Assembly: GCA_963422465.1 (NCBI GenBank)
Contig: OY730169.1
Coordinates: forward strand, 1,984,001 to 2,048,000
From: Lichina pygmaea
Taxonomy: Eukaryota; Ascomycota; Lichinomycetes; Lichinales; Lichinaceae
Length of the DNA stretch: 64,000 bases
Direction: 5' to 3'
In this document: positions 12,538 to 60,680 of the stretch, one piece after another
Position numbering within the stretch: position 1 is the first letter of the stretch
How the letters are laid out: each line of letters starts with the position of its first letter
Program-made: the position numbers and the translations under genes
Notes under the pieces: model-generated
Told to the model about the DNA's origin: nothing
Seen by the model: the letters and a program-made list of their open reading frames with translations, nothing else
The model's database searches: none

Positions 12538-13139
12538 TGTTGCAGTCCGTACCGTGCCGTCCTAACCGAGTATAGGATTAAGGGTGAGATGCGGAAGGCG
12601 GGTTGGTTCTCGCAGGAGAGGAGTGTCAAGGAGCGCGAAGGGGTTTGGTGGAACATGGTGGTGGTGACACCTGATCAATGGCTTCGTACAAAAGGATTGT
12701 ATTAAAGTAGATCTAGTTGTCTGGATCACAACATGAGTTGAAGACGATCATTCCATAAGGGAACTATCGCCGGACTATATAGTGCTGGCCTGTCAAGACG
12801 ATCAAGATTGTCTTGACAGTCTTGACGTCGAGACAGGTGAGATTGTCTCGACAGTCCCACCATGTTATGCACCCTGCGTCGAGACTGGTGAGATTGTCTT
12901 GATGCTTCATGCATCCTGCGTCGAGACTGGTGAGATTGTCTCGATGCTTCATGCATCCTGCGTCGAGACTGGTGAGATTGTCTTGATACTTCATGCATGC
13001 TGCGTCGAGACTCCTGTGTGTGTCTCGACAGTCACGTGACCCCTTGTTGGTTGGTCACTTGACTTCCATGGTGTCCTCTTGCCTGGCCCGCAGCCTGATT
13101 GCCTATAAATAAGTGGCTCCTATCCCATGGGTTGTAACA
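12538..13139 (-). repeat. Gypsy A1 3' LTR (type-1 U3)
   Basis: Bounded by TGTTGC and GTAACA on the plus strand. The U3 contains three to four ~48-bp tandem units near 12,870-13,010, each with GTCGAGAC/GTCTCGAC-type inverted repeats and CATGCATS. A TATATAG box sits at about 12,774-12,780, and TATAAATA in the opposite direction at 13,104-13,111. Confidence 0.92.
13104..13111 (+). promoter_or_regulatory. Antisense TATA box in 3' LTR, upstream of antisense ORF
   Basis: TATAAATA on the plus strand, 80 bp before the ATG at 13184. It is conserved as TATAAAT in every type-1 LTR seen here (about 18,997, 53,512 and 62,751). The unrelated outer U3 of A2 has TATATAAAG at the equivalent place. Confidence 0.6.
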
Positions 13140-13183
13140 CTACCCTCCTCTCCTTCATTCATCGTCCCGATGAATTCTTGAGT

Positions 13184-13684
13184 ATGTCTGCAAAATCACA
13201 TACCTCTACTTACCAAAAACAACTGGCAGCCCAGATCTGTGATCATAACTTCATGTCGCTTGCTCTGTGTGACTTCTGTGTTTTGAACCACAAGCCCTGC
13301 TTCCGAATGTCTGATGACAACAATAAGTTGAAGTGCGCTGAATGCACTTGTCGTGGGAAGTCCTGTGTGTCACTTTCTTGGGAGTCGCTGAACATGACCC
13401 GAGATAACCTTCGTGAGGATTTGGCTGTTGATGAGGCCAAGCGGGATGCTCTTGTTGAGCAGCTTGCCAAGCTGCAGGCTTGTGTGTCCTGAAAGCGAAA
13501 GGTTCTTGAAGGTGCTGAGGGTCAAGCAAAGAAGAAGCTCCAGTGCCTTGTTGCTGAAATAGAGGCAGATGGTGAAGACTTGTCGGCAACAGTTATTGAC
13601 GTGTCCGCGCTGCAGGCCGAGCTGTTCAGTCCTGCTTCTGCCAGAACTGCTGCAGGAGGAGCTGGCAGTTCGCGAGGTTCCTGA
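13184..13684 (+). pseudogene. Antisense ORF of gypsy A1: Zn2Cys6-like cysteine cluster protein, one in-frame TGA
   Basis: 501 nt on the strand opposite gag-pol. The start is set by alignment with A2 (MSAKS here, MPPKS there). One TGA at 13490-13492 interrupts it; A2 has CAG-AAG-TGA nearby, so decay of CGA arginine codons is likely. Cysteines follow C-x2-C-x6-C-x11-C-x2-C-x6-C (CDFCVLNHKPC then KCAECTCRGKSC), the spacing of the fungal Zn2Cys6 binuclear cluster, although the usual basic residues are fewer. A charged, probably helical stretch follows (DNLREDLAVDEAKRDALVEQ). The last 59 nt overlap the end of pol tail to tail (13626-13684). It is not a shadow frame: most of it lies outside pol, and its coding sense is conserved in A2 with the same length. 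Function unknown. Confidence 0.75.
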
Positions 13685-16600
13685 GTGGTTCCCAGGTATT
13701 TTCCGAGTCTGGGTAGTTTTTCCACTTGACAAGGTATCACTGACCTTTTCTCTTCAGGATCTGTTCAACCTCAAATTCCTGTTCTTCCTCTGGTTGGTAA
13801 TGAAATGTTTCCTGCAAGGGTGTGCTCTGGTCAGCTAATTCAATCATTGAGATGTGAAAGTTTGGGTGTACCCGAGCGTCTCTCGGTAGTCGCAGTCTGA
13901 AATTGACTGGTCCAGTTCTTTCTTTGACTGAAAATAGTCCGACCTTAACATGGTCCAGTTTCTTTGTTCTTGGTTTCTTGACTTTCCAATTTTTTGTGAG
14001 AAGGTAGACTTTATCCCCCTTCTTCAGCTGAGGTGCCATTTTCAATTTTTTGTCCATTTGGTGTTGCATCTTTTCTGAGGTCTCTTGAAGGTAATGCCTC
14101 ATCATCGTGTGTGTTTGTTATAGGAGCTTGTCATGTTGGAGTGCTTTCTCTGTGTTTGGTGAAGCTCTGCTTGGCATTCCGATGTTTGTGTGTTGTCCAA
14201 AATTGGCAAAGAATAGCAATTCCTTTGTTGAGTCTGATCTGTGCTGGTTGATTGCCAGCTGTGCCACCAGTAATAACTGTACCCAATTGCTGTAGGTCTG
14301 GTTGATGTAATACCGCAAATAAGTCTCCAGGACTTGGTTTACTCACTCTGTCTGGTTGTCAGTTCGTGGGTGATAGGCCGTAGATATTTTGGGTTTTGTT
14401 CCCATGGCTGCACTGATTGTCTTCCAGTAGTTGGACATGAAGAGTTTGTCTCTGTCTGTAATGATCATGATTAGAACTCTGTGGTCTCTGACCAATCTGT
14501 CCAGTAAGAAGTGTCCCAACTGTTCTGCTGTGTGGGTCTCCTTGAATGGTACCACTATTAGATATTTTGTGAATCTGTCCACTATCACTATAATTAAGTT
14601 GTAGGTGATTCCTGTGACTCGGTCTTTGGACTTGGGTAGCTTTGTGATGAAGTCTATTGACACATCTTCCCACAGGCCTCTTAGTATTGTGTTTGGGTGT
14701 CCCTCTCCGTATAGCTTATGTCTTCCATATTTGTTTTTCTGGCATAGTAGACACTTGCTGATGTAGCTTGTGACATGTTGTCAGAGGTTGATGACATTGT
14801 TCCCTGCCTGTTGGATAAGGTCTGTGGTTTTGGTGATTCCTGGGTGACTATGTGCTGGATTATCATGGTAGTTCCTTATTAGTTCTTCAGTGTCTTCTGC
14901 TGTGAGCTTGTTGATCTGTGGTTGAGGTACCAGGTTTCCTTGCTGGTCCTACTGTAAGATCATTCCTTGGTGTTCATCATCTTCCATGTGGTCTTTTCGT
15001 CAGCTTAGTGTGTCTACTCTCCTGTTGTCTTGTCCGGGGGTGTACAAGATCTTAAACTTGTGTTACCCTAGGAGTTCAGCCTATCTGACTTGCTGTCTGT
15101 TCAGCTTCTTGGTTGTCGTGAACGTTGTCAGATTCTTGTGGTCTGTGAGAATAGTGAGTTCAGAACTGCTTTCCGCGTACACTCTCCAGTGTTCGAGTGC
15201 GTTGACGACTGCCAGTAGCTCTTTGTTGTGGATATTATAGTTTCGTTCTGCTTGTGTTATTTTTCGTGAGTAGTAGGCAACTGGGTGCCACTTGCTGTCT
15301 GCCTGTTGGCATAAACATGCGCCTACTGCCTGATCTGAAGTGTCTGTCTTGATTCGTATCGGTTGGCCTGTCTTGAAGTTGAGGAGAACTGGTTCCTTGG
15401 CGCAAGTATCCTTGAGCTGTTGGAATGCTTTTTGTTGTCTCTCCATCCACCAGTACTCCACGTCCTTCTTTGTGAGTTCTGTCAGTGGTGTTGCCATCTG
15501 GGAGTAGTTCTTAACTGATGTTAGTGTTGGCTATTGTTGAATCACTTTGATTTTCTCAGGGTTGATCTTGATCCCTTCGATTCCTATGATGCATCTGAGG
15601 AATTCAACTTCCAGTTTGTTGAACTCGCATTTCTTTGGGTTGAGCTTGAGCCCTGCCTTTTGTAGGCATCGTAGAACATCCTTCACATGTTTGGTATGTT
15701 CCTGTTGCGTGTTCAAGTAGACAAGAATGTCATCCAAGTAGGTGATAGCTGTTTGGTCCAGGTGTACTCTGATAACATTGTTGATCAATGCTTGACATGT
15801 TGCTGGTGTGTTCGTGAGTCTGAATAGCATAACCAGATACTTGTAGTGTCTGTATCAGGTTCTGAAGGCTGTCTTCCATTCTTCTCCTTCTTTCATGCAT
15901 ATCAGGTTGTATACTCCTTTCAAGTCCAGCTTGGTAAAGATTGTAGCTTGGCTGATCCTGTCTTACAATTTGTTCACATTTGGCAACAGATATTGGTTTT
16001 TGATAGTAATATTGTTGAGTTTCCTGTAATCCACACAAAGTCGAAGACTTCCATCTTTCTTTAGTGCAAATAGTATTGGGTATCCTGCTGGCGATTGAGA
16101 TTCTCAAATAAAACTCTTTTTCAGGTTTTCCTCCAGGTACTCGCGAAGTACTTGGAGCTCTTTCTCTGATAACTGGTAAATTGGTCCAAATCCTAGCTCT
16201 GTCCCTGGTTGCAACTTGATCTCATGATCCCAAGGTTAGTGCTTAGGCAACACTGCTGTTGTTGTCTCTTCCTGAAAGAGGTTATCATACCCAGGTCAGT
16301 ACTCTTCAGAGATCTCCAGAGGGTTAACAACTTCCTCTCTCTTTATCTCTGACTGTTTGGCCACCTGGTTCCGGGGTGTGCCTGTCAAGGCAGACCTCTT
16401 CTCTTGAGAGTTGTCCTTTCTGTCAGTGAGGTTCCACTGAGGACTTCTTCCCTCATCTGTCTATGCCTTCTGCGGCTAGTAACAGGTCTGAGCTGTGTTG
16501 TTAGTGCAGTTCCTAAACGTGAGTACTCCTGTCTTCCAGTTAACAACTGGGTTGTGCTTCTTTAGCCAAGGCATCCCCAAATAGATATCCTGAGTGGCCA

Positions 16601-18412
16601 ACTTGACGATATCAAGGTGGATCCTTTCAGCATAGTGTCTGGTAACTATTTCCATTGGATGCGTCTCATGGCAGACTAGCTCTGTCTGTCCATTTGCCAT
16701 CACAAGCTGATAGGGCTGCTGCTTGCATCTCCTTCCAGTACCAAGGGTGTCGTAAAGTTGTCTTGAAATGTAGTTTCCACTGGCTCCAGAGTCAACAAGC
16801 ATGTATGTCCGTACTGGCATGTTGGCGTGTAGTGACACAGGCAATCGCAGGTGCTTTGCGTTGCTAGAGGTCATGTTGTTGAGCTCCTGATGTCACCCCT
16901 TGACAAGGGAGTTCAGTCTTTTCCTGATCAAAGTGTTTTTCCACTGACTGGGCAATAGGTCCAGCCATTCCCATCAGTTCTGAGGAATCTGTTCATGAAT
17001 TTGTCTTGCTGATGCTTGTCACATCCAGGCTTAAGGCAGTACTGCCAGTTGTTGATGTAGCAGTTGTTGTTATTGCCTTGCTGTAGGAACATGAGGTGTT
17101 CGTGCTAATCATGTGTGTGCCCGGGAAATACAGTGTGTTGGTGTTTGTCTCAAAGATAGATCTCACACATATCCTTCTTGCAATTGACCCAATACTTGTG
17201 GCAGGTGGCGCAGTAGGGTGAATGTCCTCCGTACCTTTGTAGTTGTTTGTGGTAGGTGCAGTAGTGTTTTGTGCAAAACCTCCACTGTAGTTCACCATAC
17301 TGTAGGTTTCATGAGTCCATGCTGTAAGCATAGCTTCCTTGTGGTATTTCTTCTTTGATAGACATGGGTTTGTCTTGGTCCCCATCAGAGGTGGTTAAGG
17401 GCTCCTGTCTCTTGTCCTGACCTGTCTGTTCTGGTAGGTTCTTACCTCCTGATGTTGCCAGTTGGTAGGCTACTTCCAATATCTGATCGTATTTGTTCCA
17501 TTGTTCAAGGGATAGCTGAGCCTCTCCTGGTGGGTCCTCCAGCTTGATGACATTCCAGTCTCTGTCAAGTGTATTAAGTTGCTGTCAGTGCACCTTGTTC
17601 TTTGAACAACAGTCTTTTGCCATGTGGCCTAGCTTACCACAGGCATAGCACTTCAGTGCTTTCCTCTTTTTGTTATTCCTTCCCTTTGTGAACCTTCCCT
17701 TGTGGTGGACTGCATCCAATTCCATGGGTGTATAGCCATATAGGTCATGTGGCGGTGCCTTGTTAGGTGGCTTATAGTGGTTGCTCACATGCTATGTAGG
17801 GTGGCTGTATCCTCCATCGTGGTGTTTCTCCATCGCTCACTTGAATAGCTTGTCATCAATGTTGATTGCTTGTGCGATGAGCTCGTCCAGTGTGTTGACC
17901 ACTTGTCTATCAAAGGTGATTTTGTCCTTCACATTTTCTTTGAGTCTATGTCAGTACATGACTATCAGGGTGTCATCGTCCCAGTCAGTCAGTACTGAGT
18001 ATTGCTTGAACTGCGTGGTGTACTCTGCAGCTGAGTGTTGTTGTTTGATGTGCTGGATCATTCGTATAGCCACTTTGTCTTTGTTAGATAGTCCAAGGAT
18101 CCTTTTGATCTTGTCTTTGAATTGCGTCTATTTTGTCATCTATTCCATCATGCTGTCATGGTCTCTGTTTCCTGAGAGATGTTTGTTGACGTAGGGCTTG
18201 ATCCATCAATAAGCATTACCTCTTATGTAAGTGGTTGCAAAGAGGGGCCACTTCTTCTTAGGCAGCTTTGTCTCTGGTTGGAATTAAAAGTAGACTTGGA
18301 GTTGCATGAGCCAGTCGTTGACCTTGTTTCTTTCACTGTAGAACAGGTCTGGCTTGGCGACACTAATCTTTCCATCTGGGAAGTTGGGGTTGGTTGCTCC
18401 TGAGGTACTCAT
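13626..18412 (-). pseudogene. Gypsy A1 gag-pol, degenerate
   Basis: Starts at ATG 18412 (MSTSGATNPNFPD), only 18 nt from the 5' LTR, and ends at a TGA at 13626-13628. Domains: gag with knuckle CYACGKLGHMAKDC (~17,600-17,660); protease with intact LVDSGASGNYIS (~16,790); RT with YLDDILVY (~15,730); RNase H with LTDHKNL (~15,130); integrase with STAYHPRTDNQTE (~14,350); C-terminal chromodomain (13,626-13,790). Many in-frame stops interrupt it, so this copy cannot make its proteins. Several stops lie at codons that are CAA in A2 and TGA here, or the reverse, as expected from decay of an ancestral CGA. Confidence 0.92.
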
Positions 18413-18430
18413 CCTTGAGGGTTTTCAAAG
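18413..18430 (-). promoter_or_regulatory. Putative primer-binding site of gypsy A1
   Basis: The 18 nt between the 5' LTR and the gag ATG do not begin with the TGG expected for tRNA 3'-end priming. On the minus strand, 2 nt after the LTR, they read TTGAAAAC. This is one mismatch from the complement of GTCTTCAA in the LTR (plus-strand TTGAAGAC at 18631-18638). A2 has the perfect pairing. Confidence 0.4.
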
Positions 18431-19032
18431 TGTTGTGGTCTGTACTGTGCCATCCTAACCAAGTATAGGATTAAGGGCAAGATGTGGAAGGCGGGTTGGT
18501 TCTCGCAGGAGAGGAGTGTCAAGGAGTGCAAAGGGGTTTAGTGGAACATGGTGGTGGTGACACCTGATCAATGGCTTTGTACAAAAGGATTGTATTGAAG
18601 TAGATCTAGTTGTCTGGATCACAACATGAGTTGAAGACAATCATTCCATAAGGGAACTATCACTGGACTATATAGTGCTGGCCTGTCAAGATGATCAAGA
18701 TTGTCTTGACAGTCTTGACGTCAAGACAGGTGAGATTGTCTTGACAGTCCCACCATGTTATGCACCCTGCGTCAAGACTGGTGAGATTGTCTCGATGCTT
18801 CATGCATCCTGTGTTGAGACTGGTGAGATTGTCTTGATGCTTCATGCATGCTGCGTCAAGACTGGTGAGATTGTCTTGATGCTTCATGCATGCTGCGTCA
18901 AGACTCCTGTGTATATCTTGACAGTCACGTGACCCCTTGTTGGTTGGTCACTTGACTTCCATGGTGTCCTCTTGCCTGGCCCGTGGCCTGATTGCCTATA
19001 AATGAGTGGCTCCTATCCCATGGGTTGTAACA
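18431..19032 (-). repeat. Gypsy A1 5' LTR (type-1 U3)
   Basis: 602 bp, same length as the partner LTR. Many CpG sites of the partner are TpG or CpA here. It contains the TATATAG box near 18,667-18,673 and the tandem U3 units at ~18,770-18,905. Confidence 0.92.
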
Positions 19033-24474: not shown

Positions 24475-24577
24475 TGTGACAAGGCAATGGCAGAGCAAAC
24501 AGGCAACAGTGCAGATGGAACTTCCCGGGAAGGTGCGTGACTTGTGCCAGATATGCAACTGGGCCAGAACTGTGACA
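24475..24577 (-). repeat. Gypsy B1 3' LTR with internal deletion
   Basis: Only 103 bp against 302 bp for the partner. The missing middle lies between two GCAGAGCA repeats that are both present in the partner LTR, suggesting deletion by slippage or recombination. The polymorphic ends TGTGACA..TGTGACA are intact. Confidence 0.8.
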
Positions 24578-27500
24578 TTACCCTCTTCCTTCACATGGCG
24601 AACTCCTGTGAGCCTCAGGCCACTCGTGGACGTAGTTCTGTGGCTGTGGTTTCCTTGGGTATTTCTCATGGAAGTTGTAGATAGTGTTTTTGGTGTTGTC
24701 AAGATGCTCAATAGACTCTTCAGTGGCATCTTCAATTGGCCATCCAGACTATTTGACCAGGTACTTGAACTTCTGTCAAGATGTTGCTGGCTTGGAGTCA
24801 AGGATTTCTTCAACCTGGAACTCTTCATCTGTGTCTTGACCAATGACAGGGCCAGGGTGTTCATTTGATTGGCCAGGGATAGGATTAGCAGGTGTCAGAC
24901 ATAGAAGGGAAACATGAAAGACAGAGTGGATCTTGAGAGTGTGTGGAAGCTCCAGATAGCAGGCACAGCTTCCAACTATCTTCAACACCTTGAATAGTCC
25001 AATCCACTTGTTGTCAAGCTTTTTGCATGGGTGGCGTGTCCTGATGTTCTTGGTATTCAGCCAAACAAGATCTCCAGTTTGATAGGACAGTGACAGGACT
25101 CAATGTAAATTGGTGGTGTGAGCTTGAGCTTCCTGGGATAGTCGGAGTTCAGCTTGCAACTGTTCCAGAATCTACGTTATTTCTCCAGAGATTTCCATAG
25201 TATCTTGGTTGTAGGCTTCACTCGTGGGTGTGATGCTGAGCTGTGGATGGAACTCTTTGTTGGCAAAGAACAGTGACATGCCAGAGGAATCAGACTGGGA
25301 GTTGTTCTGCGTGAACTCTGCCAGAGGAAGCCATTGGACCCAGTCATCTTGGAGATAGTTGACATAGGATCTCAGGTAGCGTTCAAGCTCCTAATTCTCT
25401 TGTTCTGTCTGACTATCTGTCTCTGGGTGGTGTCCTGAGGATAGTCATAGTATGACGTCAAGATGGGCACAAAGTACTTTCCAGAATAAGCTGACAAACT
25501 GACCTCCTCTGTCTGAGACAATACTCCTGGGCAAGCTATGGGTACAGACAACAAACTGGATGAACATCTGGACAAGATGTGAGGTTGTTATCTCAGCACA
25601 TAGTACAAAGTAGTGTTCTTTGGTGAGACAGTTAGTGATGACCCAGATGTGCTTGGCACCAGGGAAGCAGGCATCTCTTGACTTGGGCAAGTCAGTAATG
25701 AAATCCATAGCCAGATTCTGCCAACATTACTGAGGTACAGGAAGAGACAGCAGCTCTCCTTGGTGATCACAGGCAGGCTTTGCTCAAGAGCAGACATGAC
25801 AATTCCTGATGTACTGCCGTATAATGTTCACCATCTTTAGCCAATAGTACCAACAAGACAGGAGATTGTGGGTCTTGGCAATCCCAGTGTGGCCAGCCAT
25901 TGCTTGGTCATGGGCTTCTTGGAACAGGTGTAGACGTAGCTTATTGTTCTCAGGGATCCAGAGTCAGTTCTTGTAGAAGAGATAGTTATTTTCCAAGCTG
26001 CAGTCTGAGAGAGACACTTCTTGACTGTGCCTGACACCATCCCTTAGCATCTGTGACACTATTGCCACTGGATCACCTTCAGCAAGGTTGTTATAGGCAG
26101 CTTGGATGATGTCTGAAAGAGGTACAGCATCAGGTTCAGTGTCAACTGGTGCAGCTTCTGAACATCTCAGAATCTGGATAGGCTTGACTTGAACCTCTGA
26201 ATATGCAAGATTCTTGGGCTTGAGGACAACTTACTCCATGAAGTCTTGACAGGGATCACTGTCTGACAGGAGGTCTTGGGAACATCAAGTGAGAGCGTCA
26301 GCCTTGCACTGACTGCCTGGACAGTAGCTGATCTTGAAATTGAAGTGTGATAAGAACTTGCTCCAACAGGCTTGACGGTGGGAAAGGCACTTTGACAACA
26401 TGAAGTACTCCAAGTTCTTGTGATCAGAGATCACCTTGACAGGTTCTGGAGATCCTTCAAGCTCTGCTCACTATTCTTCAAAGGCACAGACAATTGCCAG
26501 CAACTCTTTGTTATAGATCTTGTAGTTGCATTCTGCTGGCAGGTGGTGGCGTGACAAGAAGGCAACAGGGTGTAGAACTCCTTCATGGTCTGGCTGTGAC
26601 AGGACAGCACCAGAGATGTAGTCAGAAGTGTCAGTCTCAACAACACACTCCTTCTCTAGATCAAAGTGCTGCAGGATGGGTGCAGTGCTGAACACCTTCT
26701 TGATACTTTCAAACAAGCACTGCTCTGGGGTTTCCCACTTGAAGGCAACATTCTTCTTAGTCAGAGCTGTGAGCAGGGATGCAAGCTTGGCAAAGTCTTT
26801 GATGAACCAGCGGTAGAAGTTTGCAAAGGTAATAAAGCTCTGCACTTCCTTGAGACTGGCAGGAGGCTTCCACTCCTTGATAGTGTCAGTCTTGGCTGGG
26901 TCCATACTCACAGATCCGGGTCAGCCATCTTCAGTGGCAGACTGAATGATAAGGCCAAGGTACTTGACTTGATGGACTTCAAAGTCATACTTGGAGATGT
27001 CAACTTGCAGGCTTACATCTTGTAGTTGACTGAGAACAAGCTTGATGTACTTCTGGTGTTTCTTGAGTGTCTGACTGTAGACAAGGATGTCATCCACATA
27101 GGCAGTGCCAAAGACATCAAGGATATCAGGTCCCAAAACATCATTGATGTAGTTCTGGAATATGCTTGGAGTATTGGCAAGACCAAAGGGCATGATGAGG
27201 TATTCGTAGAGGCCTGAGTGTGTGCGGAACGCAGTCTTCTATTCTTCACCTTCCTTCATCCAGATACAGTTGAAGGCACCAACAATGTCAAGCTTGGTGT
27301 ACCACACAGTTTTGCAAAGCTGGTCTAACATCTCCTGGATCAGTGGCAGGGGGTAACAGTTCTTGATGGTGATAGTGTTGAGTGCTCTGTAGTCTACATA
27401 GAAACATAATCCACCTTCTGACTTCTTGACAAAGAGGACTGGTGCAGTAGTAGGTGATGAAGATGCTTGAATAAAGCTCTTGTTCAGGTTCTCTGTCAGG

Positions 27501-28488
27501 TACTTCTTGAGAACTTCAAGTTCTTCTCTGCTTATGCTGTACAGAGGTCCAGAGGGTGCCTGGGTTCCTGGTTCCATCTTGATCTTGTGGTCAACTCCTG
27601 GGTGTAGAGAAGGAAGCTTGTCAGTGTTATCCTTGCTGAAGATGTCCAGGAACTTGTGGTACTAAGCAGGGAGAAGTGTGGCAGGATCCACACACTTTTT
27701 TGGCTTCAACACCTGCTCAATATCTCTCAGAGAAATACTGAACACCTGGTGATCTGGCTTGGTAGCAAGGAGAGAAAATACAGCAGTATTGATGGGGATT
27801 GGCGTGGCAGAAAGAGGCTTGGGATCCTGAGACTTTCCAGCAGACATCTTGGCTTCAAGATCTAAAGAGATTGGATAGCTATTGTTTGACTTGAGGCATG
27901 CAGATCAGCAGTGATCTGACTTGAACATGATTGAGGTGTTTGTCCAATCAATGTGTGGCCTGTGTTTCTGGAGCTATGGCATCCCCAGAATCACATCATA
28001 GTGAAGACCAGGAGACAAAGAGAGAGACTTCTTCCTGGTGCACGCTATGTGCTGTGGTCATGATTGTCTTGGCAAGATGTGTGGTTTGTGACATCTTGCC
28101 ATCAAATAATCACAATGTGTGTGGGTAGAGGAGAGGTTCTTGGTGAAGAGATTGCACAAAGGAAGCACCAATACAGCCAAATACTGAACAGCCAGAGTTA
28201 ATAAAAGCATTACACTTGAATTTCCTATCTAGGATACAAGGAAGAAACAAGCACTTGCTGTCCAATTACTGGTCTGGAGACAGATAGCCAACATGGAGAT
28301 TCTTTTCATGTTCTTGGGCATGACGATGACCAAGGACTACTTGTTTTCCGACTCTGGAGTAGTCTCAACAGTGGCAGACTTGGTGGTGGTTGTGGTGGTG
28401 GCAACAACAGGCATACTTTTCACTGGACAGAAGGTTGAGATGTGACCTTGGTTCCCATAGTAGAAGCAGAGGCCTTTGCTTTGGTGAC
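24578..28488 (-). pseudogene. Gypsy B1 pol and distal gag, degenerate
   Basis: Minus strand. Recognisable: gag knuckle CFYYGNQGHISTFC (one Cys replaced by Tyr; B2 has CFYCGNQGH), protease region, RT with YVDDILVY (~27,090), RNase H with DTSDYISGAVLSQ (~26,610), integrase with SDRGGQF (~25,520) and a C-terminal chromodomain (~24,700-24,870). The stop (TAA 24578-24580) abuts the LTR, so family B has no room for the antisense ORF found in A and C. Numerous stops and frameshifts. Confidence 0.9.
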
Positions 28489-39343: not shown

Positions 39344-42300
39344 ATGTCTCAACAACCAGTCCAAGCCATGCCAGTTGCTGGAAATAACAAGTTCCTTTGT
39401 AACATCTTTGCAGAGTTCATGTGAATTTAAGCTACTAACACTACTCCCAAGTCCAAGTCTGAACACACTGCTGACCCAGAGATCTTCAGTGGTGATGGTG
39501 GAAACACGGAAATTACGCATGAGAAGCTTGAGAGCTTCATCATGTCACTGTCACTCAAGATGACACTCAACACTGACTGGTACCCCACAGAAACATCGCA
39601 GATTGCGTACATCTTTTCACACATGACTGGTACTGCGCAGTCCTACATCTCAGCTAAGATCATGGCTGGCCAGTACATTGACTGGCACAACATCATCCAA
39701 GATCTCCAGAACACCTTCTCCAACCTAGACCCAGAGTTCCTAGCTCAGAGGAAGCTTATCACCTTGTGTCAGGCCAACTGTTCCTTTGCTGAGTTCTTCA
39801 CAGAGTTCAATCAGTATACTCTATGCACAGACTTCAACAACAAGGTCTTGAAGTGCCATCTTTGATGTGCTGTCTCTGAAGAGCTTGCCAAGCAGCTTGT
39901 CAGCATTAACCTCAAGGACATCAGCTATCAGAAGCTTGTTGAGGAATGCCAGCTGCAGGACAACCAGTTGTGTACCACTTCTACCAACTCTCACTGTCCA
40001 CGTCAAGCACCTCCCACCCAAGCCTCAGTTCCACAGTCAGGAGCTTCAGTTCCGTGTCCAGGGTTCATCAAGCCAGCCTTCACACCACAGCCACCAAGTC
40101 CTACCATGGATCTCAGCCACTCTAAGCTGACACCAGAAGAGTGAGAATGTCACCAAAGCAAAGGCCTCTGCTTCTACTGTGGGAACCAAGGTCATGTCTC
40201 AACCTTCTGTCCAGTGAAAAACATGCCTGTTGTTGCCACCACCACAACCACCACCAAGTCTGCCACTGTTGAGACTACCCCAGAGTTGGAAAACAAGTAG
40301 TCCTTGGTTATCGTCACACCCAAGAACATAAAAAGAATCTCCATGTTGACTATCTGTCTCCAGACCAGCAATTAGACAGCAAGTACTTGTTTCTTCCTTG
40401 TATCCTACATGGGAAATTCAAGTGCAATACTCTTATTGACTCTGGCTGTTCAGCATTTGGCTGCATTGGTGCTTCCTTTACACAATCTCTTCACCAAGAA
40501 CCTCTCCCCTACCCACATACATTGTGATTGTTTGATGGCAAGACATCACAAACCACACATCTTGCCAAGACAATCATGACCACAGCACATGGCATGCACC
40601 AGGAAGAAGTCTCTCTCTTTATGTCTCCTGGTCTTCACTATGATGTGATTCTGGGGATGCCATGGCTCCAGAAGCACAGGCCACACATTGATTGGACAAA
40701 CACCTTAATCATGTTCAAGTCAGATCACTGCTGATCCACATGCCTCAAGTCAAACAATAGCTATCCAATCTCTTTGGATCTTGAAGCCAAGATGTCTGCT
40801 GGAAAGTCTCAGGATCCCAAGCCTCTTTCTGCCACACCAATCTCCATCAATACTGCTGTATTTTCTCTTCTTACTGCCAAGCCAGATCACCAGGTGTTCA
40901 GTGTTTCTCTGAGAGATATTGAGTAGGTGTTGAAGCCAAAGAAATGTGTGGATCCTGCCACACTTCTCCCTGCTCAGTACCACAAGTTCCTGGATGTCTT
41001 CAGCAAAGATAACACTGACAAGCTTCCTCCTCTACATCTAGGAGTTGACCACAAGATCAAGATAGAACCAGGAACCCAGGCACTCTCTGGACCTCTGTAC
41101 AGTATAAGCAGAGAAGAACTTGAAGTTCTCAAGAAGTACCTGACAGAGAACCTGAACAAGGGCTTCATTCAAGCATCTTCATCACCTGCTGCTACACTAG
41201 TCCTTTTTGTCAAGAAGCCAGGAGGTGGATTGTGTTTCTGTGTAGACTACAGAGCACTCAACACCATCACCATCAAGAACTGTTACTCTCTGCCACTGAT
41301 CCGGGAGATGTTAGACTAGCTTTGCAAAGCTGTGTGGTACACCAAGCTTGACATTGTTGGTGTCTTCAACTGTATCCAGATGAAGGAAGGTGAAGAATGG
41401 AAGACTGTGTTCTGCACATGCTCAGTCCTCTACAAATACCTTGTCATGCTCTTTGGTCTTGCCAATGCTCCAAGCATGTTCCAGAACTACATCAATGATG
41501 TTTTGGGACCTGACATCCTTGACGTCTTTGGCACTGCCTATGTGGATGACATCCTTGTCTACAGTCAGACACTCAAGAAACACCAGAAGCATGTCAAGCT
41601 TGTTCTCAGTCAACTACAAGATGCAAGCCTGCAAGTTGACATCTCCAAGTGTGACTTTGAAGTCCATCAAGTCAAGTACCTTGGCCTCATCATTCAGTCT
41701 GCCACTGAAGACAGCTGACCCAGATCTGTGAGTATAGACCCAGCCAAGACTAACACCATCAAGGAGTGGAAGCCTCCTGCCAGTCTCAAGGAAGTGCAGA
41801 GCTTCATTGTCTTTGCAAACTTCTACCACTGGTTTATCAAAGACTTTGCCAAGCTTGCATCCCTACTCACAGCTCTGACCAAGAAGAATATTGCCTTCAA
41901 GTGGGAAACCCCAGAGCAGTGCTTGTTTGAAAGTATCAAGAAGTTGTTTAGCACTGCACCCATCCTGCAGCACTTTGATCCAGAGAAGGAGTGTGTTGTT
42001 AAGACTGACACTTCTGACTATGTCTCTGGTGCTGTCCTGTCACAGCCAGACCATGAAGGAGTTCTACGCCCTATTGCCTTCTTGTCACACTGCCACCTGC
42101 CAGCAGAATGCAACTACAAGATCTACAACAAAGAGTTGCTGGCAATTGTCTGTGTCTTTGAAGAATGGCAAGCAGAGCTTGAAGAATCTCCAGAACCTGT
42201 CAAGGTGATCTCTGATCACAAGAACTTGGAGTACTTCATGTCATCAAAGTATCTTTCCCGCTGTCAAGCCTGTTGGAGCAAGTTCTTGTCACACTTCAAT

Positions 42301-44061
42301 TTCAAGATCAGCTACTGTCCAGGCAGTCAGTGCAAGGCTGACACCCTCACTTGATGTTCCCAAGACCTCCTGTCAGACAGTGATCCCTGTCAAGACTTCA
42401 TAGAGCAAGTTGTCCTCAAGTCTAAGAATCTTACACATTTAGAGGTTCAAGTCAAGCCCATCCAGATTCTGAGATGTTCAGAAGCTGCACCAGTTGACAC
42501 TGAACCTGATGCTGCACCTCTTTCAGACATCATCCAAGCTACCTATAACAACCTTGCTGAAGGTGATCCAGTGGCAACAGTGTCACAGATGCTAAGGGAT
42601 AGTGTCAGGCACAGTTGAGAAGTGTCTCTCTCAGACTGCAGCTTGGAAAATAACTATCTCTTCTACAAGAACTGACTCTGGATCTCTGAGAACAATGAGC
42701 TACACCTACACCTGTTCCAAGAAGTCCATGACCAAGCAATGGCTGGCCACACTGGGATTGCCAAGACCCACAATCTCCTGTCTTGTTGGTACTATTGGCT
42801 AAAGATAGTGAACATTATACAGCAGTACATCAGGAATTGTCATGTCTGCTCTTGAGCAAAGTCTGCCTGTGATCACCAAGGAGAGCTGCTGTCTCTTCCT
42901 GTACCTCAGTAATGTTGGCAGAATCTGGCTATGGATTTCATTACTGACTTGCCCAAGTCAAGAGATGCCTGCTTCCCTGGTGCCAAGCACATCTGGGTCA
43001 TCACTAACTGTCTCACCAAAGAACACTACTTTGTACCATGTGCTGAGATGACAACCTTGTATCTTGTCCAGATGTTCATCCAGTTTGTTGTCTGTACCCA
43101 TAGCTTGCCCAGGAGTATTGTCTCAGACAGAGGAGGTCAGTTTGTCAGCTTATTCTGGAAAGTACTCTGTGCCCATCTTGACGTCATGCTACAACTATCC
43201 TCAGGACACCACCCAGAGACAGATAGTCAGACAGAACAAGAGAATCAGGAGCTTGAACACTACCTGAGATTCTATGTCAACTATCTCCAAGATAACTAGG
43301 TCCAATAGCTTCCTCTAGCAGAGTTCACGCAGAACAACTCCCAGTCTGATTCCTCTGGTATATCACTGTTCTTTGCCAACAAAGAGTTCTATCCACAGCT
43401 CAGCATCACACCCATGAGTGAAGCCTGCAACCAAGATACTATGGAAATCTCTGGAGAAATAACACAGATTCTGGAATAGTTGCAAGCTGAACTCCGACTA
43501 TCCCAGGAAGCTCAAGCTCACGCCACCAATTTACATCAAGTCCTGTCACTGTCCTATCAAACTGGAGATCTTGTTTGGCTGAATACCAAGAACATCAGGA
43601 CACGCCACCCATGCAAAAAGCTTGACGACAAGTGGATTGGACTATTCAAGGTGTTGAAGACAGTCAGAAGCTGTGCCTGCCATCTGGAGCTTCCACACAC
43701 TCTCAAGATCCACTCTATCTTTCACGTTTCCCTTCTACATCTGACACCTGCTAATCCTATCCCTGGCCAATCAAATGAACATTCTGGCCCTGTCATTGGT
43801 CAAGACACAGATGAAGAGTTCCAGGTTGAAGAAATCCTTGACTCCAAGCCAGCAATGTCTTGACAGAAGTTCAAGTACCTGGTCAAATAGTCTGGATGGC
43901 CAATTGAAGATGCCACTGAAGAGTCTATTGAGCATCTTGACAACACCAAAGATGCCATCTACAACTTCCATGAGAAATACCCAAGGAAACCACAGCCACA
44001 GAACTACACCCACAAGCAGCCTGAAGCTCACAGGAGTTTGCCATGGGAAGGAGGGAGGTAA
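39344..44061 (+). pseudogene. Gypsy B2 gag-pol, degenerate
   Basis: ATG 39344 (MSQQPVQAMPVAGNN) to TAA 44059-44061, directly against the 3' LTR. Gag with knuckle CFYCGNQGHVSTFC (~40,160). Protease region with LIDSGCSAFG (~40,435). RT with LPLIREMLD then TAG, and YVDDILVY (~41,535). RNase H DTSDYVSGAV (~42,010). Integrase (HHPETDSQTE, ~43,210) and chromodomain (~43,800-43,950). Stops at TAG/TGA in several places make it inactive, but gross order and length are preserved. No antisense ORF: pol runs to the LTR. Confidence 0.92.
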
Positions 44062-44407
44062 TGTCACAGTTCTGGCCTTGTTGCATATCTGGCACAAGTC
44101 ACACACCTTGCTGGGAAGTTCTATCTGCACTGTTGCCTGTTTGCTCTGCTATTGCCTTGTTGCATATCTGGCACAAGTCACACACCTTGCCGGGAAGTTC
44201 TATCTGCACTGTTGCCTGTTTGCTCTGCTGTATCCCCTGCCTATAAGAACTTCTCCTGCTCCCCCAGCTTCTTCTCTTCTTCTTTTCTCTTTTCCTTCCT
44301 TGTCTTTTGTCTTGTACATCAATCCAAGTCTCAAGTCTCAAGCCAAGTCAGGTCAAGGTTACTGAATCAGTTAGGCTTGAGTTCTGCTCTGCTATTGCCT
44401 TGTCACA
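44062..44407 (+). repeat. Gypsy B2 3' LTR
   Basis: 346 bp, same structure as the 5' LTR, with GTCTTTTGT at the R motif, the opposite CpG decay product to that of the 5' LTR. Confidence 0.9.
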
Positions 44408-54013: not shown

Positions 54014-54658
54014 TGTTACAACCCAGGAGGAACACAGTCTTTATATACTCACAGAAAGCAGCAGACTGGATACTGGACAGAAGTACCAGGCAGCGTGACA
54101 CGGGAACCAGTCACGTGACTGGCGAGACAAACCAGGGGGTGCTCGCCGCAGCATGCATATGCACAAACAAGTGAGCAAAGTGAGCAGAGCTCACCCAGCT
54201 CGCCGCAGCGTGCATGAACAAGTGAGCAAAGTGAGCAGAGCTCACCCAGCTCACCGCAGCGTGCATGAACTGTGAGCAAAGTGAGCAGAGCTCACCGATC
54301 TCACCGCAGTGTGCATGAACTGTGAGCAAAGTGAGCAGAGCTCACCGATCTCGCCGCAGTGTGCATGAACTGTGAGCAAAGTGAGCAGAGCTCACTGTGC
54401 TCACGAACTGAGCACTATATAGTCTGGCGATAGTTCCCCTATGGAATGATTGTCTTCAACTCATGTTGTGATCCAGATAACTAGATCTACTTCAATACAA
54501 TCCTTTTGTACAAAGCTGTTGATCAGGTGTCACCACCACCATGTTCCACCAAACCCCTTCGCACTCCTTGACACTTCTCTCCTGCAAGAACCAACCCACC
54601 TTCCAACTCTCGCCCTAATCCTATACTCAGATAGGACAGTACAGTACAGACTGCAACA
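54014..54658 (+). repeat. Gypsy A2 5' LTR (type-2 U3)
   Basis: U3 with five ~50-60-bp units built on GTGAGCAGAGCTCAC, a palindromic core, and GCAGYGTGCATGAAC (54,160-54,400). TATATAG at 54416-54422, then R/U5 homologous to type-1 LTRs. Confidence 0.92.
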
Positions 54659-54676
54659 CTTTGAAGACCCTCAAGG
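54659..54676 (+). promoter_or_regulatory. Putative self-primer binding site of gypsy A2
   Basis: CT then TTGAAGAC (54661-54668), perfectly complementary over 8 nt to GTCTTCAA at 54452-54459, which is 36 nt after the TATATAG box. It does not start with TGG. The gag ATG follows at 54677. Confidence 0.45.
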
Positions 54677-57600
54677 ATGAGTACCTCAGGAGCAACCAAC
54701 CCCAACTTCCCAGATAGAAAGATTAGCGTCGCCAAGCCAGACCTGTTCTATGGTGAAAGAAACAAGGTTGACGACTGGCTTATGCAACTCCAAGTCTACT
54801 TTCAATTCCAACCAGAGACAAAGCTGCCTAAGGAAAAGTGGCCCCTCTTCGCAACCACTTACATGAGAGGTAATGCTTATTGATGGATCAAGCCCTATGT
54901 CAACAAACATCTCTCAGGAAACAGAGACCATGATAGCACAACAGAATAGATGACAAAATGGACGTGATTCAAGGACAAGATCAAAAGGATCCTTGGACTA
55001 TCTAACAAAGACAAAGTGGCTATACGAATGATCCAGCACATCAAACAACAACACTCAGCCACAGAGTACACCACGCAGTTCAAACAATACTCAGTACTGA
55101 CTGACTGGGACAATAACACCCTGATGGTCATGTACTGACGTGGACTCAAGGAAAACATGAAGGATGAAATCACCTTCGACAGACGAGTGGTCAACACACT
55201 GGATGAACTTATCGCACAAGCAATCAACATCGATGACAAACTATTCAAGTGAGTGATGGAGAAACACTACGACGGAGGATACAGCCACCCCGCATGGCAT
55301 GTGAGCAACCACTACAAGCCACCTAACAAGGCACCACCACATGACCCATATAGCTATGCACCTATGGAACTGGATGCAGTCCACCACAAGGGAAGGTTCA
55401 CGAAGGGAAGGAACAACAAAAAGAGGAAAGCACTGAAGTGCTATGCCTATGGCAAGCTAGGCCACATAGTGAAAGACTGTTGTTCAAAGAACAAGGTGCA
55501 CTGACAGCAACTTAATACACTCGACAGAGACTGGAATGTCATCAAGCCAGAGAATCCACCAGGAGAGGCTCAGCTATCCCTTGAACAATAGGGCAACTAC
55601 AATCAGACATTGGAAGCAGCCCACCAACTGGCAACATCAGGAGGCAAGGACCTACCAGAACAGACAGGTCAGGACCAGAGACAGGAGCCCTTAACCACCT
55701 CTGATAGGGACTGAGACAAACCCACGTCTATCAAAGAAGAAATACCACAAGGAAGCTATGCTTACAGCATGGACCCACGAAATCTACAGCACAGCGAACT
55801 ACAGTGGAGATTTTGCACAAAGCACTACTGCACCTACCACGAACAACTACGAAGGTACAGAGGACATTCACTCTACCACACCACCTGCCACAAGCATTGG
55901 GTCAATTGTGAGAAGGATGTGTGTGAGATCCACCTTTGGGACAAACACCAACACACCACATTCCCTGGGCACACACATGACTGGCACGAACACCTCATGT
56001 TCCTACAGCAAGGCAACAACCACAACTGCTACATCAACAATTGGCAGTACTACCTCAAGCCTGGATGTGACAAGCATCAGCAAGACAAATTCATAAACAG
56101 ATTCCTCAGGACTGATGGGAATGGCTGGACCCATTGCCCAGTCAGTGGAAAGACACTTCAATCAGGAAAAGACTGAACTCCCTTGTCAAGGGGTGACATC
56201 AGGAGCTCAACAACATGACCCCTAGCAACGCAAAGCACCTGCGATTACCTGTGTCACTACACGCCAACACGCCAGTACGGACATACGCACTTGTTGACTC
56301 TGGAGCCAGCGGAAACTACATCTCAAGGCAACTTTACGACACCCTCAGCACTGGAAGGAGACGCAAGCAGCAGCTCTATCAGCTTGCGATGGCAAATGGA
56401 CAGACAGAGCTAGTCTGCCATAAGACGCAGCCAATGGAAATAGTTACCGGACACCATGCTGAAAGGATCCACCTTGATATTGTTGAGTTGGCCACTCAGG
56501 ATATCTATTTGGGGATGCCTTGGCTAAAGAAGCACAACCCAGTTGTTAACTGGAAGACAGGAGTACTCACGTTTAGGAACTGCACTAACAACACAGCTCA
56601 GACCTGTTACCAGCCGCAGAAGGCGTGGACAGATGAGGGAAGAAGTCCTCAGTGGAATCTCACTGACAGAAAGGACAACTCTCAAGAGAAGAGGTCTGCC
56701 TTGACAGGCACACCCCGGAACTAGGTGGCCAAACAGTCAGAGATGAAGAGAGAGGAAGTTGTTAACCCTCTGGAGATCCCTGAAGAGTACCGGCCTGGGT
56801 ATGATAACCTCTTTCAGGAAAAGACAACAACAGCAGTGTTGCCTAAGCACCAACCTTGGGATCATGAGATCAAGTTGCAACCAGGGACAGAGCCAGGATT
56901 TGGACCAATTTACCAGTTATCAGAGAAAGAGCTCCAAGTACTTCACGAGTACCTGGAGGAAAACCTGAAAAAGAGTTTCATTCAAGAATCTCAATCACCA
57001 GCAGGATACCCGATACTATTTGCACTAAAGAAAGACAGAAGTCTTCGACTTTGTGTGGATTACAGGAAACTCAATGACATTACCATCAAGAACTGATATC
57101 CGTTACCAAATGTGAACAAATTGCAAGACAGGATCAGCCAAGCTACAATCTTTACCAAGCTGGACTTGAAAGGAGCATACAACCTGATACGCATGAAAGA
57201 AGGAGAAGAATGGAAGACAGCCTTCAGAACCTGATACAGACACTACGAGTATCTGGTGATGCTATTCAGACTCACGAACACACCAGCAACATGTCAAGCA
57301 TTGATCAATAACATCATCAGAGCACACCTGGACCAAACAGCTATCACCTACCTGGATGACATTCTTGTCTACTTGAACACGCAACAGGAACATACCAAAC
57401 ACGTGAAGGATGTTCTATGATGCCTACAACAGGCAGGGCTCAAGCTCAACCTGAAGAAATACAAGTTCAACAAACCAGAAGTTGAATTCCTCAGATACAT
57501 CATAGAGATCGAAGGGATCAAGATTGACCCTGAGAAAATCAAAGTGATTCAGCAATGGCCAACACTGACATCAGTTAAGGAAGTACAAGCCTTCCTAGGA

Positions 57601-59514
57601 TTTGCCAACTTCAACTGACAGTTCATAAAGAACTACTCACAGATGGCAACACCACTGACAGAACTCACGAAGAAGGACGTGGAGTACTGGTGGACGGAGA
57701 GACAACAAAAAGTATTCCAACAGCTCAAGGACACTTGCGCCAAGAAACCAGTTCTCCTCAACTTCAAGACAGGCCAACCAACACAAATCAAGACGGACGC
57801 TTCAGATCAGGCAGTGGGAGCATGTCTATGCCAACAGGCAGACGGCAAGTGGCACCCAGTTGCCTACTACTCACAAAAAATGACACAAGTGGAATGAAAC
57901 TATGATATCCACGACAAAGAGCTACTGGCAGTTGTCAACATACTTGAACACTGGAGAGTGTACGTGGAAAGCAGTTCTGAACTCACTGTTCTCACAGACT
58001 ACAAGAATCTGACAATATTCACAACAACCAAGAAGCTGAACAGACAGCAAGTCAGATGGGCTGAACTCCTAGGGCAACACAAGTTCAAGATCTTGTACAC
58101 CCCTGGACAAGACAATGGGAGAGCAGACGCACTAAGCTGACGAAAAGACCACATGGAAGATGATGAACGCCAAGGAATGATCTTACAGCAGGACCAGCAA
58201 GGAAACCTGGTGCCTCAACCACAGATCAACAAGCTCACAGCAGAAGACACTGAAGAACTAATAAGGAACTACTACGATAATCCAGCACATGGTCACCCAG
58301 GAATCTCCAAGACCACAGACCTTATCCAACAGACAGGGAACAATGTTATTAACCTCTGACAACATGTCACAAACTACATCAGCAAGTGTCTACTATGCCA
58401 GAAAAACAAACATGGAAGATATAAGCCATACGGAGAAGGACACCTGAACACAATACCGAGAGGCCTGTGGGAAGATGTGTCAATGGACTTCATCACAAAG
58501 CTACCCAAGTCCAAAGACCCAGTCACAGGAATCACCTACAACTTGATTATGGTGATAGTGGACAGATTCACAAAATATCTAATAGTAGTACTATTCAAGG
58601 AGACCCACACAGCAGAACAGTTGGGACACCTCTTACTGGACAGATTGGTCAGAGACCACAGAGTTCTGATCATGATCATTACAGACAGAGACAAACTCTT
58701 CACATCCAACTACTGGAAAACAATCAGTGCAGCCATGGGAACAAAACCCAAAATGTCTACAGCCTATCACCCATGAACTGACAGCCAGACAGAGTGAGCA
58801 AACCAAGTCCTGGAGACTTACTTACAGCATTACATCAACCAGACCCACAGCAATTAGGTACAGTTATTACCAGTGGCACAGCTGGCAATCAACCAGCACA
58901 GATCAGACTCAACAAAGGAATTGCCATTTTTTGCCAATTTTGGACAACATGCAAACATCAGGATGCCAAGCAGAGCTTCACCAAACACAGAGAAAGCACT
59001 CCAACATGACAAGCTCCTACGACAAACACACACGATGATGAGGCACTACCTTCAAGAGACCTCAGAAAGAATACAATGTCAAATAGACAAGAAATCGAAA
59101 ATGGCACCTCAGCTAAAGAAGGGGGATAAAGTCTACCTCCTCACAAGAAATTGGAAAACAAAGAAACCAAAGACAAAGAAACTTGACAACATCAAGGTCA
59201 GACTATTTTCAGTCGAAGAAAAAACAGGACCAGTCAACGTCAAGATACGACTACCAAGGGATGCCAGAGTCCATCCAAACTTTCATATATCAATGATTGA
59301 ACCAGCTGACCAGAGCACACCCTTGCAGGAAACATTCCATTATCAACCTGAAGAAGAACAAGAGTTTGAAGTTGAACAGATCCTGGCTAGAAAAGGTCAG
59401 CAATACCTTGTCAAGTGGAAAGGATACCCAGACTTGGAAAATACCTGGGAACCACTCAAGAACCTCGTGAACTGCCAGCTTCTTCTGCGACAGTTTCGGC
59501 AGAAGCAGGACTGA
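54677..59514 (+). pseudogene. Gypsy A2 gag-pol, interrupted mostly by TGA at arginine codons
   Basis: ATG 54677 (MSTSGATNPNFPD) to TGA 59512-59514. Gag knuckle CYAYGKLGHIVKDC (first pair Cys to Tyr, ~55,440). Protease LVDSGASGNYIS (~56,290). RT DLKGAYN and YLDDILVY (~57,350). RNase H, integrase (MDFITKLPKS, ITDRDKLF, STAYHP, ~58,480-58,780). Chromodomain EFEVEQIL..YLVKWKGYPDLENTW (~59,350-59,490). Many stops are TGA where gypsy proteins have Arg, for example IKN-stop-YPLPN, FRT-stop-YRHYEY, DALS-stop and QTE-stop-ANQ, so the frame is otherwise preserved over long stretches. Confidence 0.92.
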
Positions 59515-59956
59515 ACAGCTCAGCCTGCAGGAGGGATGTGTCAATGACTGATCAAGTCAAATCCTCACTATCTGACTCCATCTCTTTCACCAAGCACTGA
59601 AGCTTCTGCCTTGCACAGACCTCGGCGCCCTCCAACACCTTTCACTTCTGAGACAGACGAGCCTGCACTGTGGCAAGTTGTTTGAAGAGTGCATCGTGTG
59701 TTGCCTTGTCAGCGGCCACATCCTCACGGAGGTTGTCCCGGGACATGTTCAGAGATTCCCAGGACACAGAGACACAAGACCTTCCGCGCCGAGTGCACAC
59801 AGCACATTTCAACTTATCGTCTTCTCCCGGTATCTGGAAGCACGGACGACCACGGAGAACACAAAAGTCGCAGGGTGTATGTGAAACAAAACCCTGATCG
59901 CAGATTTGAGCAGCAAGCTGAGTTCAGCTAACAGTCACACATGACTTTGGAGGCAT
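59456..59956 (-). pseudogene. Antisense ORF of gypsy A2: Zn2Cys6-like, three in-frame TGA
   Basis: Minus-strand 501 nt from ATG at 59956 to TGA at 59456-59458, the same length as in A1 with no indel between them. Cysteine pattern identical (CDFCVLRGRPC then KCAVCTRRGRSC), here with more of the basic residues expected in Zn2Cys6 clusters. All three internal stops are TGA. The 3' 59 nt overlap the pol end (59456-59514). Many differences from A1 leave the frame and the cysteines intact. Confidence 0.78.
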
Positions 59957-59999
59957 GACCAGATTTCATCAAGACGATGAAAGATGGAGAGGAGGATAG

Positions 60000-60680
60000 T
60001 GTTACGACCCAGGAAGAACACAGTCTTTATATACTCACAGAAAGCAGCAGACTGGATACTGGACAGAAGTACCAGGCAGCGTGACATGGGAACCAGTCAC
60101 GTGACCGGCAAGACAAACCAGGGGGTGCTCGCCGCAGCATGCATATGCACGAACAAGTGAGCAAAGTGAGCAGAGCTCACCCAGCTCGCCACAGCGTGCA
60201 TGAACAAGTGAGCAAAGTGAGCAGAGCTCACCCAGCTCACCGCAGCGTGCATGAACTGTGAGCAAAGTGAGCAGAGCTCACCGATCTCACCACAGCGTGC
60301 ATGAACCGTGAGCAAAGTGAGCAGAGCTCACCGATCTTGCCGCAGCGTGCATGAACTGTGAGCAAAGTGAGCAGAGCTCACCGATCTCACCGAGTGAGCA
60401 AAGTGAGCAGAGCTCACTGTGCTCACAAACTGAGCACTATATAGTCTGGCAATAGTTCCCCTATGGAACGATCGTCTTCAACTCATGTTGTGATCCAGAC
60501 AACTAGATCTACTTCAATACAATCCTTTTGTACGAAGCTGTTGATCAGGTGTCACCACCACCACGTTCCACCAAACCCCTTCGCACTCCTTGACACTCCT
60601 CTCCTGCGAGAACCAACCCGCCTTCCACCTCTCGCCCTAATCCTATACTCGGATAGGACAGTACAGTACAGACTGCAACA
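60000..60680 (+). repeat. Gypsy A2 3' LTR (type-2 U3)
   Basis: 681 bp, one more U3 unit than the 5' LTR. On the minus strand it carries TATATAAAG at 60025-60033. Confidence 0.92.
60025..60033 (-). promoter_or_regulatory. Antisense TATA box in A2 3' LTR
   Basis: TATATAAAG on the minus strand, about 70 bp upstream of the antisense ATG at 59956. Same position as TATAAATA in A1, though the surrounding U3 sequences differ. Confidence 0.6.

Follow-up and report, generated by a model that had tools for sequence, protein, structure and literature searches.

Why would a retrotransposon keep a gene on the strand opposite its own gag-pol, and what might such a gene do? The question is raised by a stretch of 64,000 nucleotides (nt) from the ascomycete Lichina pygmaea (contig OY730169.1, positions 1,984,001 to 2,048,000; hereafter the window), which holds two related long terminal repeat (LTR) retrotransposons, copy A and copy B, each with a 501-nt frame antisense to pol. 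A preliminary description of this DNA had proposed that the frame encodes an element-borne regulator with a Zn2Cys6-type cysteine cluster. The antisense frame is under purifying selection between subfamilies of the element, and forms one cassette with the U3 region of the LTR. It is somewhat probable, in our judgement, that its product, a Zn2Cys6-like dimer of ~166 residues per chain, binds a dyad array in its own U3 and regulates a bidirectional LTR. The features concerned are as follows.

12538..19032, gag-pol on the minus strand: copy A, an LTR retrotransposon with an LTR pair and a 5-bp duplication (CTGTT)
12538..13139, minus strand: 3' LTR of copy A (its 5' LTR is 18431-19032)
13184..13684, plus strand: antisense gene of copy A, A-type, with Zn2Cys6-like cluster, predicted coiled coil and one internal stop
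54014..60680, gag-pol on the plus strand: copy B, an LTR retrotransposon of the same kind, with an LTR pair and a 5-bp duplication (TCTCT)
60000..60680, plus strand: 3' LTR of copy B (its 5' LTR is 54014-54658)
59456..59956, minus strand: antisense gene of copy B, B-type, with three internal stops
59365..59508, plus strand: chromodomain at the pol end of copy B, adjoining and slightly overlapping the antisense gene

Both elements are assigned to the Ty3/gypsy chromodomain class because of their pol domain matches: aspartyl protease, Tf2-1 SH3 and chromodomain lie above the Pfam cut-off and the integrase core lies below it; LTRs and target duplications are present as well. Protease, SH3 domain and chromodomain are found on the strand opposite the frame, which bears out its antisense orientation as first described; its coordinates, strand and 501-nt length also proved correct on rereading. 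The frame as gag of an oppositely oriented element was considered and rejected, protease, integrase and chromodomain being on the other strand. In both copies the frame sits between pol and the 3' LTR; it overlaps only the last ~56 nt of pol (in copy B, the last position of the pol frame is 59511), and in copy A its ATG lies 44 nt internal to the LTR edge. The frame was said to be kept open in both window copies, which is not the case: copy A has a single internal stop at codon 103, and copy B has stops at codons 11, 105 and 135.

How the frame fares elsewhere was assessed in the window's own genome (32.5 Mb, 8 contigs), where the element occurs as types A, B and C. First-look searches gave 497 candidates with an A-type query and 511 with a B-type query; 150 were scored per list, and the lists may overlap. 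The 140 loci sampled comprised three groups: the top 30 in gene similarity, the top 30 for integrase, and 80 distributed over the two ranked lists of 150. They yielded 135 distinct copies, 133 measuring 501 nt and two (L025, L138) 498 nt; in L034 and L050, which run into unrelated sequence, the 501-nt length is extrapolated. With these four left out, the analysed set held 131 uninterrupted 501-nt copies (75 A, 56 B). In this sample, whose protein-based lists favour frame-keeping copies, the antisense frame is fully open in 15 of the 75 A and 2 of the 56 B copies, and also in the single C copy L138. Taken one by one, the six cysteines are retained in 73-75 of the 75 A copies and in 50-56 of the 56 B copies. 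Among the integrase-chosen loci (L031-L060), the only set selected independently of the gene, the antisense gene is present in 30/30, in L034 only in part. In position and orientation, in its presence in most copies and in its coding conservation, the gene agrees with the antisense open reading frames (ORFs) known between pol and 3' LTR, such as those of Boty and Grande.

Coding conservation was measured as the Nei-Gojobori ratio of nonsynonymous to synonymous change (dN/dS) over the first 444 nt, outside pol, in the open copies L002 (A), L101 (B) and L138 (C). The ratio is 0.09 for A-B and 0.10 for A-C, comparisons in which synonymous sites are near saturation, and 0.23 for B-C; averaged over the 30 A-B pairs of open copies it is 0.13 (0.09-0.18). 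Of the five other frames, four yield 1.4-1.9; the fifth, at 0.17, shares the gene's wobble position and is open in none of the 131 copies. Could the frame nevertheless be a chance opening opposite unselected sequence? The stops in both window copies would suit such an origin, to which we assign next to no probability. Under a base-composition null that leaves CpG context out of the model, change from an A to a B copy gave a mean ratio of nonsynonymous to synonymous differences (pN/pS) of 0.84 against an observed 0.26, and none of 5000 simulations was as low; zero stops were kept in 76/5000 and all six cysteines in 35/5000. Together with dN/dS, and with relatives in other genomes that share the cysteine cluster and a helix or coiled coil, this refutes a chance frame. 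The element-encoded antisense gene of the preliminary description, which had named dN/dS as its test, is thus supported by a clear outcome.

The same selection on amino acids bears on a role for the antisense RNA rather than a protein, acting through double-stranded RNA or silencing of the element. Roles of this kind are discussed for other antisense transcripts in passages of PMC7264820, and the C-to-T-type decay of the copies shows host attack on the element; dN/dS, however, largely refutes RNA as the sole role, and we regard this explanation as highly improbable.

Within types the picture is one of decay. pN/pS is 0.40 and 0.48, values to be expected of copies that, once inserted, decay in a mostly neutral way. 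Stop codons in the 131 copies fall where alternative states include CGA, CAA, CAG or CGG, the CpG count drops with rising stop number (r -0.68 in A, -0.41 in B), and variants are mostly transitions (175/193 in A, 179/193 in B). Judged by these patterns, the decay is C-to-T/G-to-A change, as if caused by CpG methylation or a process like repeat-induced point mutation. One further locus, L141 (G000:C7:1388400-1391100, gene from base 868), is a truncated element of subtype C with an open antisense gene; its adjoining LTR is inverted, so that the sense promoter of that LTR faces the antisense gene. This is a possible case of domestication or rearrangement.

What kind of protein is encoded? The six-cysteine rule of PF00172 is C-x2-C-x6-C-x(5-12)-C-x2-C-x(6-8)-C. 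The antisense protein conforms to it in the window copies, both of which have exactly the C-x2-C-x6-C-x11-C-x2-C-x6-C spacing first reported, and the six cysteines are invariant in 18 family members. The evidence is consistent with a Zn2Cys6-type cluster, which would bind zinc, followed by a charged helix. A PDB sequence search with the antisense protein gave no useful match. Among distant family relatives (P0132, P0146, P0147), P0132 comes near DUF3716 (PF12511; 18.1 vs 22 bits), a hint that the small cysteine-cluster proteins of ascomycetes form a larger group; PF27583, listed for P0102, was not among the Pfam-A matches of P0102 in the present scan. A simple captured host factor still matching PF00172 was rejected: by eye, none of the 27 genomic PF00172 matches lies at the listed element copies.

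The possible targets of such a protein lie in the U3 region, between two opposed TATA-like boxes:

12774..12783, minus strand: sense TATA-like box ACTATATAGT of copy A
12793..13028, unstranded: U3 array of copy A, six dyads TCGAGAC-N10-GTCTCGA, decayed half-sites included
13104..13110, plus strand: antisense TATA-like box, reading TATAAAT and placed 80 nt upstream of the ATG
60126..60427, unstranded: U3 array of copy B, half-sites GTGAGC and GCTCAC, many at 9-bp steps

The arrays are type-specific, that of type C consisting of GCTCGA, TCGAGC and GCGAGC, largely at 9-bp steps. In each case they are located between the sense TATA box and the opposed antisense TATA-like box. Of the 41 A copies, 40 carry the latter at -80 or -79; 15 of the 17 true B copies have it at -77, and the remaining two read GTATAAAG. 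Compared with the maximum of 500 shuffles, the commonest 6-mer occurs 8 vs 7 times in A, 20 vs 6 in B and 7 vs 4 in C, counts that tandem duplication by itself raises. In P0006-type relatives the upstream extension (MGINTQ...NTILPF) would, going by its protein letters, fit reading through a TATAAAT box and LTR edge, in the same layout.

U3 and antisense gene form one cassette. In steps of 150 bp, A and B are 0.88-0.98 identical along 14038-18387 and about 0.85 along 13588-14037; R-U5 reaches 0.89-0.92, but U3 only 0.54-0.76 and most of the antisense gene 0.65-0.71. Finer windows on the window pair place the boundary of the cassette on the sense TATA box (12774): identity is 0.90-0.97 over 12578-12777, then 0.50. 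Distances and trees were computed for 58 distinct copies (41 A, 17 B; 57 in the next pol stretch and in integrase). L141 was left out, its LTR beside the gene being inverted and its integrase missing; two odd rows were retained: L020, whose integrase stretch holds unrelated sequence, and L004b, whose U3 is distant from every other. Median distances, listed in the order A-A, B-B and A-B, come to 0.092, 0.056 and 0.431 for U3; 0.070, 0.079 and 0.327 for the antisense gene; 0.062, 0.055 and 0.168 for the chromodomain end; 0.074, 0.053 and 0.083 for the next pol stretch; and 0.062, 0.039 and 0.050 for integrase. U3 type equals gene type in 58/58 distinct copies (61/61 placed copies agree, from which two duplicates and L141 were dropped). 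A coarser typing had given two mixed-type loci, each including pieces of another element; both became clear once the type was read immediately upstream of the gene.

On the trees the type label changes once for the gene, once for U3, 5 times for pol +700..+1597 and 14 times for integrase. Shuffled labels average 14-15 changes, and with 14 against a shuffled mean of 14.4 the types are mixed in the integrase tree like shuffled labels; the pol count of 5 is the better guide, because the short integrase tree is poorly resolved and its 14 inflated. Distances and label changes together therefore indicate that array, antisense promoter, gene and adjoining pol end moved together onto one pol population, a transfer that, from the trees, apparently happened more than once. 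The swapped block includes the chromodomain end of pol (13628-13884), where the A-B distance compares with about 0.06 within types, so that targeting and regulation may travel together.

Linkage of this kind also leaves room for another reading, in which a genuine protein under selection serves a different part of the life cycle (nuclear import, integration or chaperoning) and the U3 array, bound by host factors, is carried along as a neighbour. Selection and conservation are silent on the protein's role, neighbours stay linked without interaction, the chromodomain end of pol is linked as well, with its A-B distance of 0.168, and passages of PMC7264820 consider roles of this sort for the antisense ORFs of plants. 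What speaks for binding instead is the combination of a Zn2Cys6-like cluster and coil, a dyad array, and a cassette boundary that falls on the core promoter and not just anywhere. We consider action elsewhere unlikely.

The favoured mechanism, that of a self-encoded regulator of the LTR, would work as follows. The antisense gene, presumably transcribed from its own TATA-like box, would give a protein of ~166 residues that combines a Zn2Cys6-like cluster with a coiled coil. This predicted protein would bind, as a dimer, to the array of dyad half-sites in its own U3. Binding would regulate gag-pol through the sense TATA box, and the antisense gene itself through the opposed box. Array, antisense promoter, gene and adjoining pol end would be one cassette exchanged onto a common gag-pol backbone. 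Co-inheritance of the gene with dyad sites of the element's promoter suggests an element equipped with its own means of control. As to the sign of regulation, activation or relief of silencing is favoured over repression. A repressor that limits expression and copy number, as a self-limiting or antisense-coded negative factor, would have the same binding anatomy, and the antisense factor of human T-cell leukaemia virus type 1 (HTLV-1) opposes sense transcription; about 500 first-look candidate copies per query, however, ill fit tight self-limitation, and a repressor appears distinctly improbable.

Several observations weigh against the regulator just outlined. The window copies gave no PF00172 match at E up to 10, and among the proteins scanned the best relative, P0138 (20.6 bits), as well as P0090 (18.7 bits), stays below the gathering score of 21 bits. 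The profile match to Zn2Cys6 is only 41-64% probable, fold scores are weak (Foldseek E 0.63), structural matches to Zn2Cys6 factors are weak too, though consistent with such a fold, and the basic patch between cysteines 2 and 3, conserved in 12 host Zn2Cys6 domains, is not conserved in the family. Codon 135 is a stop in 51/56 B copies (window position 59552-59554); because this stop is near-general in B, the product of most B copies, were they expressed, would end ~31 residues early, and a C-terminally shortened B form may have spread. The 6-mer excess in A is narrow, and array motifs and half-site patterns were chosen post hoc. Finally, gene and U3 are neighbours, so that their linkage can be passive; the promoter-edge position and the symmetry of the arrays argue against this, without proving it. 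The original observation holds in essence, its reality and its interpretation each being borne out in part.

Taken further, there is a nearly even chance that these elements represent a fungal LTR lineage with a self-contained regulatory cassette, in which an antisense Zn2Cys6-like factor and the dyad array it recognises between opposed promoters pass together from one gag-pol backbone to another, protein and sites have diverged in step towards different specificities, and the protein stems from a broad, largely unnamed ascomycete family, perhaps mostly borne by retrotransposons. Should this hold, the LTR element would bring along both a transcription factor and its sites in a form that can be exchanged, and the small cysteine-cluster proteins now labelled 'hypothetical' would acquire a role. 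The two naturally diverged candidate pairs of protein and sites are each other's control. The function of antisense genes in LTR retrotransposons is given as unknown in passages of PMC7264820; here it becomes a testable molecular hypothesis with a specific protein and candidate sites.

The window also contains another long inverted repeat pair, 24479-28027 vs 40612-44160, 95% complementary over 3549 nt and apparently of a different repeat family.

How do these elements compare with known systems? Word searches of the literature, with incomplete coverage, turned up no antisense Zn2Cys6-like gene reported in connection with a U3 array; in titles and abstracts no fungal antisense zinc-cluster ORF or such self-encoded factor was reported, and linking DUF3716 with retrotransposon gave no match. 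The statement that no fungal case is known needs correction: Boty-like elements of Botrytis cinerea have an antisense gene, brtn, according to passages of PMC8365987, PMC7264820, PMC4227169 and PMC5987419. Boty is likewise fungal; it has a CHROMO domain, and its antisense gene occupies the interval from pol to the 3' LTR. Its descriptions, as far as available here, contain no U3 cassette, and the likeness concerns position and kind. Boty with brtn is reportedly described by Zhao et al. 2011 (doi 10.1016/j.virol.2011.06.020). Going by those same passages, brtn sets a precedent among fungi for genes of this general sort.

Zn2Cys6 factors (PF00172) and DUF3716 share with the antisense protein the six-cysteine pattern, the cluster followed by a coil and, for the sites, dyads of GAL4-like geometry; the protein differs in lying below both Pfam cut-offs, in its longer middle loop and unconserved basic patch, and in being element-borne. 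HBZ of HTLV-1 also comes from an antisense gene and is read from the 3' LTR, as the gene here would be. An antisense promoter in the HTLV-1 3' LTR is mentioned in passages of PMC7264820. HBZ is a retroviral bZIP factor, whereas Pfam scans of the antisense protein found no bZIP family. The plant gypsy ORFs of Grande (gene23), RIRE2 and Retand occur in most copies and are of unknown function (passages of PMC7264820). The window elements resemble them in both respects and, as they do Boty, in antisense position and orientation; the difference is that these are plant elements, whose descriptions in those passages leave a zinc cluster unmentioned. VANC of the Arabidopsis VANDAL transposons is sequence-specific, and its targets are often tandem repeats that differ between related elements (abstract of PMC5735166). 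It is likewise element-encoded, but VANDAL is a DNA transposon and anti-silencing by VANC was shown experimentally, whereas here arrays and linkage are observed and binding is predicted. Antisense genes at this position in plants and in Boty, and tandem-repeat targets for VANC, are thus already known from these sources; what is new here is that U3 and antisense gene form one cassette.
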